Source of the DNA: Acidobacteriota bacterium
GTDB taxonomy: Bacteria > Acidobacteriota > Blastocatellia > Pyrinomonadales > Pyrinomonadaceae
Assembly (NCBI GenBank): GCA_003222895.1
Contig: QHXI01000056.1
Span: forward strand, 62,001-126,000
Reading direction: 5' to 3'
DNA: 64,000 nucleotides
Each line of letters begins with the position of its first letter. The stretch's first letter is position 1. The position numbers and the translations under genes are program-made. Of this stretch, positions 62,007 to 64,000 are shown piece after piece. The notes under the pieces are model-generated. The model saw only the letters and a program-made list of their open reading frames with translations, was not told the origin of the DNA and searched no databases.

Positions 62007-63188
62007 ATGTCCGCTGCTACCGAAGCAATCACCAATCAGGCTCGTCCACGCGCAATCTCGCTGCGCTGGATCATCAGCGCGCGCGAAGATCTGATCTGGT
62101 TTATCGGCTCAGTCGCGTCGAGTTACTTACTCCTAATTCTCTACGTTACCGGAATCCTGCCGCTAATCCCGATGGTTGCCGGATGGGCGATCCTGATCGA
62201 TGCGCCGCATGTCTTCGGCACTTTCTCGCGAACTTATTTCGATAAGTCGGAGTGGAAGACACGCAAGCGTCTGATGCTCGGTTCCCTCCTGTTCTTTGTC
62301 ATTGGGCCAACGATGGTCTTGCTGGGAGCCGGTTTCACTTTCTTTTTTATCGCCGCGCTCTGGGCCTATTACCATTTGGTGAAGCAACACTATGGCTTCA
62401 TGGTGCTCTACAAAAAGAAGAACAACGACCTCGCGCCGATCGATAACACGCTGGATCGATTGCTCTTGATGTTCGCGTTCAATTATCCGTTCGTGGCGTT
62501 CATCGCCAACGATCCAAACGCGATGGCGCGGGTGCCGGCGATTCTTCGTGGTGGTGTTAACGCGGTGGCGACGCTGCTGCTGATCGGAACGATTGTTTTG
62601 GGAATTGGTTGGGTCGCGCGACAGATTCAACGGGCAATTTCGCGCGAGCCGCTCAATGTTCCGAAGTATTTATTGTTGGCCGCAGCGATTCCAATGCATT
62701 GGATCGCTTTGATTACGCCGATGCCAGCAAAACCGATCGCGCTGGTTGCGATTCTTACCATCTATCACAACCTGCAATATCACCGATTGATTTGGTTCCA
62801 TAATCAGAAGTACGGTTCGCCGAGGCGCAGCCCCGCCGAATCAAATAAGATAGCGACACCGGAAAGGCAGCGCCTTTCCACACTGGAGGGCGGCGAAGCC
62901 GCGAGCGAAGATTCGCGACAGAAGTTCGGCCCAGCCGCATTCATCAGCCGCCGCTTAATCTTCTACATCGCCTTTGGAATTCTGTTCGGCATCGTCTATC
63001 AAGGCCCACGCCAATACCTCGGCTACTTGAATCTGCACACCGGCGACTCGCCCGCAGCACTTTCGACTCCAATTCAATTGGGCATCGCGTTTCTGTGGGG
63101 CTACGCCTTTATTCACTACTACCTCGATTCGAAAATCTGGCGCGTGCGCAGAGATCCTGCGGTGGGTAAAGCGCTGAACATTAGTTAG
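62007..63188 (+). CDS. Polytopic membrane protein with conserved-looking histidines
   Basis: Protein of 393 residues with about nine helices. Histidine-bearing motifs at helix ends, WAILIDAPHVFGTFSRTYFD, LWAYYHLVKQHYGFMVLYKK, LTIYHNLQYHRLIWFHNQ and GYAFIHYYLDSKIWR, recall membrane di-metal proteins such as the Brp/Blh carotene oxygenases, but the resemblance is only in pattern. Between the seventh and eighth helices a loop of about 45 residues is coded by small palindromes. It follows gpmI by 51 bases, separated by the perfect inverted repeat. Function unknown. Confidence 0.6.
   Translation: MSAATEAITNQARPRAISLRWIISAREDLIWFIGSVASSYLLLILYVTGILPLIPMVAGWAILIDAPHVFGTFSRTYFDKSEWKTRKRLMLGSLLFFVIGPTMVLLGAGFTFFFIAALWAYYHLVKQHYGFMVLYKKKNNDLAPIDNTLDRLLLMFAFNYPFVAFIANDPNAMARVPAILRGGVNAVATLLLIGTIVLGIGWVARQIQRAISREPLNVPKYLLLAAAIPMHWIALITPMPAKPIALVAILTIYHNLQYHRLIWFHNQKYGSPRRSPAESNKIATPERQRLSTLEGGEAASEDSRQKFGPAAFISRRLIFYIAFGILFGIVYQGPRQYLGYLNLHTGDSPAALSTPIQLGIAFLWGYAFIHYYLDSKIWRVRRDPAVGKALNIS
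62815..62910. repeat. Palindromic insertion inside the membrane protein gene
   Basis: Includes the perfect hairpin GGAAAGGC agc GCCTTTCC (62861-62879) and GGCGGCGAAGCCGC nearby. It is in frame and encodes the loop SPRRSPAESNKIATPERQRL and what follows, a low-complexity part of the protein. Confidence 0.7.
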
Positions 63189-63204
63189 GTCATGGGCAAC
63201 ACAT

Positions 63205-63847
63205 ATGGACGCGTTTGGAAAGACCATAATAGCTATCTTGGTTGGTTGGTTGGTTACTTGGCCTTCTAAGTCCACGGATTGTTGAATTGATAACAAGACG
63301 GTATCGCAGGTCTGAGCTAAGGAGAAGTCTCTTTATCGAGTTGGAAGGATTGAGAGTAATTCTTGCCGCTAACGTTTACAACATTGCGGACAATAACCGC
63401 GCTGTTAATCGAGAACTCATTGAACTCGTAGAACCAATATTACGTTCAGACAAGGTTTTTCCGGAAAGTAAGAAGGCTGCGGATGAATTAAGCTCCTTGC
63501 TGCAGTATGCAGATGAGCAAATCGCCAGCATTATGGCTTTAAAGAAACCCGCCGGCGCGCTTAACTTGAAGAAGATCTCAGTGCCCTTTCTAACGTCACA
63601 GCTTTCTTCGCTATATCTTTTTTCAGCTGAGTTTCAGCGGATTGCGCTTAAGATTTGTTCGAGGCTGGCGATAATCAATGAGGAAATTGAAGTAGCTGCC
63701 TTTAACTACCGAAAGACTTTTGACCGACTTCCCCAACAAGACCATGCGACCGTGGTCACGAACTTTCTTCAGTCTTACCAAAACATCCAGGGTTTATGTC
63801 GGCCGCTCATTGATGATGTGAATCTTGTGCTGTCGATGAAGGAGTAG
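63205..63847 (+). CDS. Membrane-anchored hypothetical protein, frame broken at a TTGG tract
   Basis: From the ATG the reading frame gives MDAFGKTIIAILVGWL, then passes through four TTGG units and stops after 26 codons. With three units the frame would run on as LGLLSPRIVELITRRYRR to the end, a typical N-terminal membrane anchor followed by a helical body of about 200 residues. As sequenced, the body can only be read from an internal TTG codon in the tract. The base composition is AT-rich compared with the surroundings. Family not recognised. It may be phase variable or a sequencing slip. Confidence 0.55.
63238..63255 (+). repeat. TTGG tetranucleotide tract (four units)
   Basis: Four TTGG units then TT, inside the start region of the hypothetical gene. 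Removing one unit puts the ATG in frame with the long body. Confidence 0.9.
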
Positions 63848-63885: not shown

Positions 63886-64000
63886 CTAGCCAAGAATTGT
63901 CTTGAGCGCATTCCTGAGCGAGAGACTGTCAGGCTGTTTGAGTTGGCCCAAGGTTCGAATGATTAGAAGCTTTTCAATCGTCGTCAGAATCGGCTTGATC
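63886..64000 (-). CDS. C-terminal end of a possible MazF/PemK-type toxin (partial)
   Basis: The minus strand reads 38 codons to a stop, ending IRTLGQLKQPDSLSLRNALK and TILG. The pattern LGQL...LRNALKTILG resembles the last helix of MazF/PemK endoribonucleases. The gene runs off the window, so most of the domain cannot be checked. Confidence 0.4.
   Translation of the reverse strand, partial: IKPILTTIEKLLIIRTLGQLKQPDSLSLRNALKTILG

Follow-up and report, generated by a model that had tools for sequence, protein, structure and literature searches.

A TTGG repeat lies near the end of the window (the whole stretch of DNA analysed, 64,000 nucleotides), in the first codons of a gene for a putative membrane protein. 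Is this repeat a switch that turns the protein on and off by slipped-strand changes in unit number, as a sequence-only reading of the same DNA proposed, or does it mark a simpler interruption of the gene? The features concerned are:

62007..63188, + strand: upstream neighbour, encoding 393 aa; several stretches are hydrophobic, and no Pfam family was matched
63205..63285, + strand: 26-codon frame that ends in TGA, its ATG matching the one at which the intact orthologue starts
63238..63255, + strand: TTGG tract, 4.5 units, in membrane-anchor codons, +4 nt relative to the orthologue
63242..63847, + strand: long frame further downstream, encoding the protein's helical body, 201 aa when read from an internal TTG
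63886..64000, - strand: convergent gene for a PemK/MazF-type toxin, of which the 3' part is inside the window; it runs on past the window end, and a DUF2281 gene follows behind it

The tract and the two reading frames

The tract is 18 nt long and falls inside the membrane-anchor codons of the gene. Its three-unit form gives two overlapping matches in the window, versus none in 100 dinucleotide shuffles. The complete 4.77-Mb genome has the exact four-unit 16-mer a single time, and the six other genomes of the genus lack it. In a sample of 310,473 bases (the window plus 20 stretches of its own genome) it is the sole tetranucleotide run of at least four units, with runs of exactly three units seen three times; Markov sequences of order 1, 2 and 3 (60 each) contained no run of at least four. 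The TTGG run is thus beyond the chance of base composition.

Translation from the ATG at 63205 gives MDAFGKTIIAILVGWLVTWPSKSTDC and ends after 26 codons at a TGA (63283-63285), and the next frame is open from a TTG at 63242 to a stop at 63845-63847. Re-reading of the sequence places the tract, the ATG and both frames where the earlier reading had put them. With one TTGG unit fewer, the two frames would join into 212 residues, in line with the continuous protein of about 213 residues previously predicted for three units, and the intact orthologue is 4 nt shorter at this point. The unit length is not divisible by three and the tract sits in the coding start region; judged by sequence, a one-unit change would toggle between a truncated and a full-length form of a conserved protein. 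A third ATG, at 63192, opens another frame through the tract (63192-63268), which reads MGNTYGRVWKDHNSYLGWLVGYLAF and then stops; its start is not hydrophobic, and no homologue matched it.

Orthologue, distant homologues and the state of the gene

An orthologue was found in one other genome, G001 (Blastocatellia bacterium isolate UBA11740), a second species of the genus, among 145 genomes searched with the window's own genome (G000) included; 33 matched at E<=1, and G000 and G001 alone were kept. Three of the weak matches (L004, L005 and L010) are presumably unrelated SPFH-type proteins. The G001 orthologue is intact from ATG to stop, with 211 residues and 76% identity to the window protein, and its N-terminus from the equivalent ATG reads MDVVKTIVFVLLGWLLGLLSP... 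In the DNA alignment the window has four extra bases, placed at the tract.

When 396 genomes of the phylum were searched with a profile, three more homologues turned up (G415, G496 and G297), all unbroken, all in one genus of another family, and 23-26% identical to the G001 protein. In this search 11 matched at E<=0.01; G000 and these three were kept, and the other seven were dropped as covering just a short inner stretch of the protein. Two of three dropped matches (L039, L041, L042) we take to be ParB-like. A wider profile run on 77 genomes of the distant family returned the same three alone (E<=1e-4), and a profile search of the class returned G000 and G001 alone (2 of 162). Used as a query, the window protein had no relative among genome contigs, viral contigs or plasmids. 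With alignments or homologues as queries, viral contigs, plasmids and phages gave no match, and genome contigs gave G001's own record alone.

The motif ILGW(L/S)FGLLSPxIV is found at the N-terminus in two of the three distant homologues, and in looser form in the third; the N-termini of two read MPEPVEKIALLILGWLFGLLSP and MPESIEKILFLILGWSFGLLSP. From these shared N-termini, the motif across the tract is an old part of the protein. The TTGG tract itself is absent from all four homologues. Against the reading favoured below, the peptide encoded before the tract matches G001 with modest significance (69 of 5000 shuffles reach the score), and its match to G415 and G496 is not significant (4036 and 3983 of 5000). 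The window copy is a +4 frameshift of a real, conserved gene, and the earlier claim that the tract breaks a reading frame is borne out: the frame one unit shorter fits the family, and G001 has the ATG, an equivalent N-terminus and four nucleotides fewer. The earlier reading had also named the start used by relatives as a check, and G001 uses the ATG-started N-terminus and not the internal TTG.

The protein is probably small, with an N-terminal membrane anchor followed by a helical body, and a membrane location is predicted from hydropathy. The N-terminal peak (Kyte-Doolittle, 19 residues) is 2.01-2.22 in the four intact homologues, and 1.11 and 1.39 in the TTG-started and 26-codon products of the window. 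A structure model is all-helical, although weak (mean pLDDT 56.9, from an alignment of two sequences). Family libraries gave no meaningful match for the protein, and the best hit in a search of solved structures had E 0.12. The gene points to a family of small anchored proteins, so far undescribed, whose members occur in accessory settings. Distant homologues are in such settings too. The G297 homologue lies between 131-nt direct repeats in a 17-copy array with genes between the copies (L090:1-12000), which in its repeats and genes resembles a large chromosomal integron cassette array, and the G496 homologue is near IS200-like and rve transposase genes.

The long frame has a dN/dS of 0.128 against G001, compared with 0.127 for the upstream gene, and its differences by codon position (41, 23 and 85) show a third-position excess. 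It has been under purifying selection over most of the period since the two species diverged. There is no clear excess decay: of the 33 columns at which the three distant homologues are invariant, 15 are matched by the window and 17 by G001. The break is therefore either recent or tolerated, two sequences being consistent with both.

Origin of the extra unit

We favour, with somewhat better than even confidence, a once-intact gene for an anchored protein that gained one TTGG unit by slippage, a slow and in principle reversible change with no selected switch. The ancestral gene would have been intact, encoding a small protein with an N-terminal anchor and helical body; one unit would then have been gained by slipped-strand replication in the anchor codons, most likely from three to four units, leaving the sequenced clone without the full-length anchored protein. 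In so short a tract units would be gained and lost slowly, but the unit number could revert, as in S. aureus icaC. One-unit slippage most simply accounts for the +4, the difference being exactly four bases and falling at a TTGG run. An ancestor with three units is an inference: the sole close relative, G001, is without any tract. Programmed ribosomal frameshifting was considered and rejected, because the orthologue needs none.

The repeat itself needs no special origin, since the probability of Leu-Val-Gly-Trp being encoded as TTG GTT GGT TGG is 0.015 under local codon usage. One codon choice for this motif yields the TTGG run, and there is no sign of selection on the repeat as a switch. The locus would be a clear case of codon choice turning a conserved hydrophobic motif into a slippage-prone run.

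An error of sequencing or assembly, with three units and an intact gene in the organism, is rather unlikely, although it has points in its favour. A single draft assembly, in 167 contigs, is the source of the tract length; decay of the long frame is not clearly in excess; and a study of frame transitions expects that conserved singletons are mostly sequencing errors (PMC3711429). Against it, of 12 orthologous genes compared with G005 only the hydrolase gene just past the window end is also frame-broken, by a ~77-nt deletion and not by a small indel; frameshifts are therefore not widespread in the assembly. The 12 were chosen by eye from 46 mechanical frames that had matches, shadow frames having been dropped. 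Exact gain of a unit in an 18-nt tract is also an atypical short-read error. That a shorter functional protein is made from the internal TTG at 63242, leaving the tract without a switching role, is still less probable. In its favour, this frame stays open over 201 codons, shows no clear excess of decay and keeps the GWLLGLLSP motif; however, no Shine-Dalgarno-like match was found upstream of the TTG, half the anchor is gone (1.11 against 2.01-2.22, as above), and the G001 orthologue has the full N-terminus from its ATG.

An evolved switch, with frequent unit changes and selection for a mixed on/off population of an accessory membrane protein, we regard as distinctly improbable. It fits the placement in N-terminal codons of a putative membrane protein, the unit that is not a multiple of three, the accessory island and a length of 4.5 units that exceeds chance in the Markov sequences of every order. 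On the other side, the tract is absent from G001 and the three distant homologues, it is the only run of at least four units in the sampled bases, and it is below the cut-off of at least five tetranucleotide units used by PhasomeIt in a Campylobacter survey (PMC6321876). It is above the cut-off of at least three in an H. influenzae study (PMC2651432). Of the on/off switch first proposed, then, the break in a real conserved frame holds, whereas the switch itself is not supported, the tract being short, a singleton in the sampled genome and missing from four homologues; it is at most a possible slow switch. Very improbable is a toggle between membrane-anchored and soluble forms, in which ribosomes starting at the ATG would stop at the TGA and might reinitiate at a TTG at 63287. 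Such a toggle would alter the location of the protein rather than its on/off state, the helical body being made without an anchor. No reinitiation TTG of this kind was seen in G001. The sequence TGA-A-TTG stands at 63283-63289, the in-frame TTG of the long frame following the stop of the 26-codon frame by one base.

Three known systems are the nearest parallels. The icaC protein of S. aureus was truncated when its gene gained a ttta unit, and reversal by loss of that unit took place in about 1 in 45,000 divisions (PMC4117637), so a run this short is able to switch slowly; as here, a low-copy 4-nt tandem unit lies in a membrane-protein gene and one unit gives an early stop, but icaC variation was seen in culture and between strains and is reversible, whereas the window tract is known from one assembly. 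Phase-variable loci of Haemophilus influenzae share a frame-changing tetranucleotide unit in the 5' coding region, but have many more units (e.g. 8-16, in one CCAA tract) and vary between strains (PMC2651432). In Salmonella mutL, a copy change in a very short run, a three-copy 6-bp repeat, likewise gives a defective allele, but there the unit is in frame and the conversion was shown experimentally (PMC2955026). Were its unit number truly variable, the tract would give this environmental acidobacterium a slow contingency locus; among the titles and abstract openings returned by a narrow literature search, none described such a locus in Acidobacteriota.

The island and its neighbours

The upstream gene is present in six of the seven genomes of the genus, with no match in G006. 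In G002, G003, G004 and G005 a convergent alpha/beta-hydrolase-like gene comes a few hundred bases or less after it. Between these two genes, G000 and G001 have the tract gene together with a PemK-like and a DUF2281 gene. The earlier view of an accessory region is therefore right, as the three genes are absent between the flanking genes in G002-G005. The PemK_toxin domain (PF02452) was matched with E 1.5e-11 and 44.9 bits against a cut-off of 23.1, and the adjoining small antitoxin-type DUF2281 protein with E 7.5e-08, identifying the neighbour as a putative PemK/MazF toxin-antitoxin pair. That a MazF-type toxin comes next, as had been suggested, is thus correct as to the gene, which however lies on the opposite strand, is convergent and runs off the window end.

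Between G000 and G001, the PemK/DUF2281 pair (63886-64000 and L062:5889-6402) has dS values of 0.31 and 0.43, against 1.20 for the tract gene, 1.16 for the upstream gene and 1.37 for gpmI. As the pair is far less diverged than these, this suggests that it may have been exchanged later.

Just past the window end, the alpha/beta-hydrolase-like gene (L001:2832-3533, - strand) is frame-broken by a ~77-nt deletion, and the missing stretch is present in the five congeners read. Within the upstream gene, the stretch 62801-62900 is less conserved (51%, versus about 80% before it) and differs in length between species, like a variable linker or insert.
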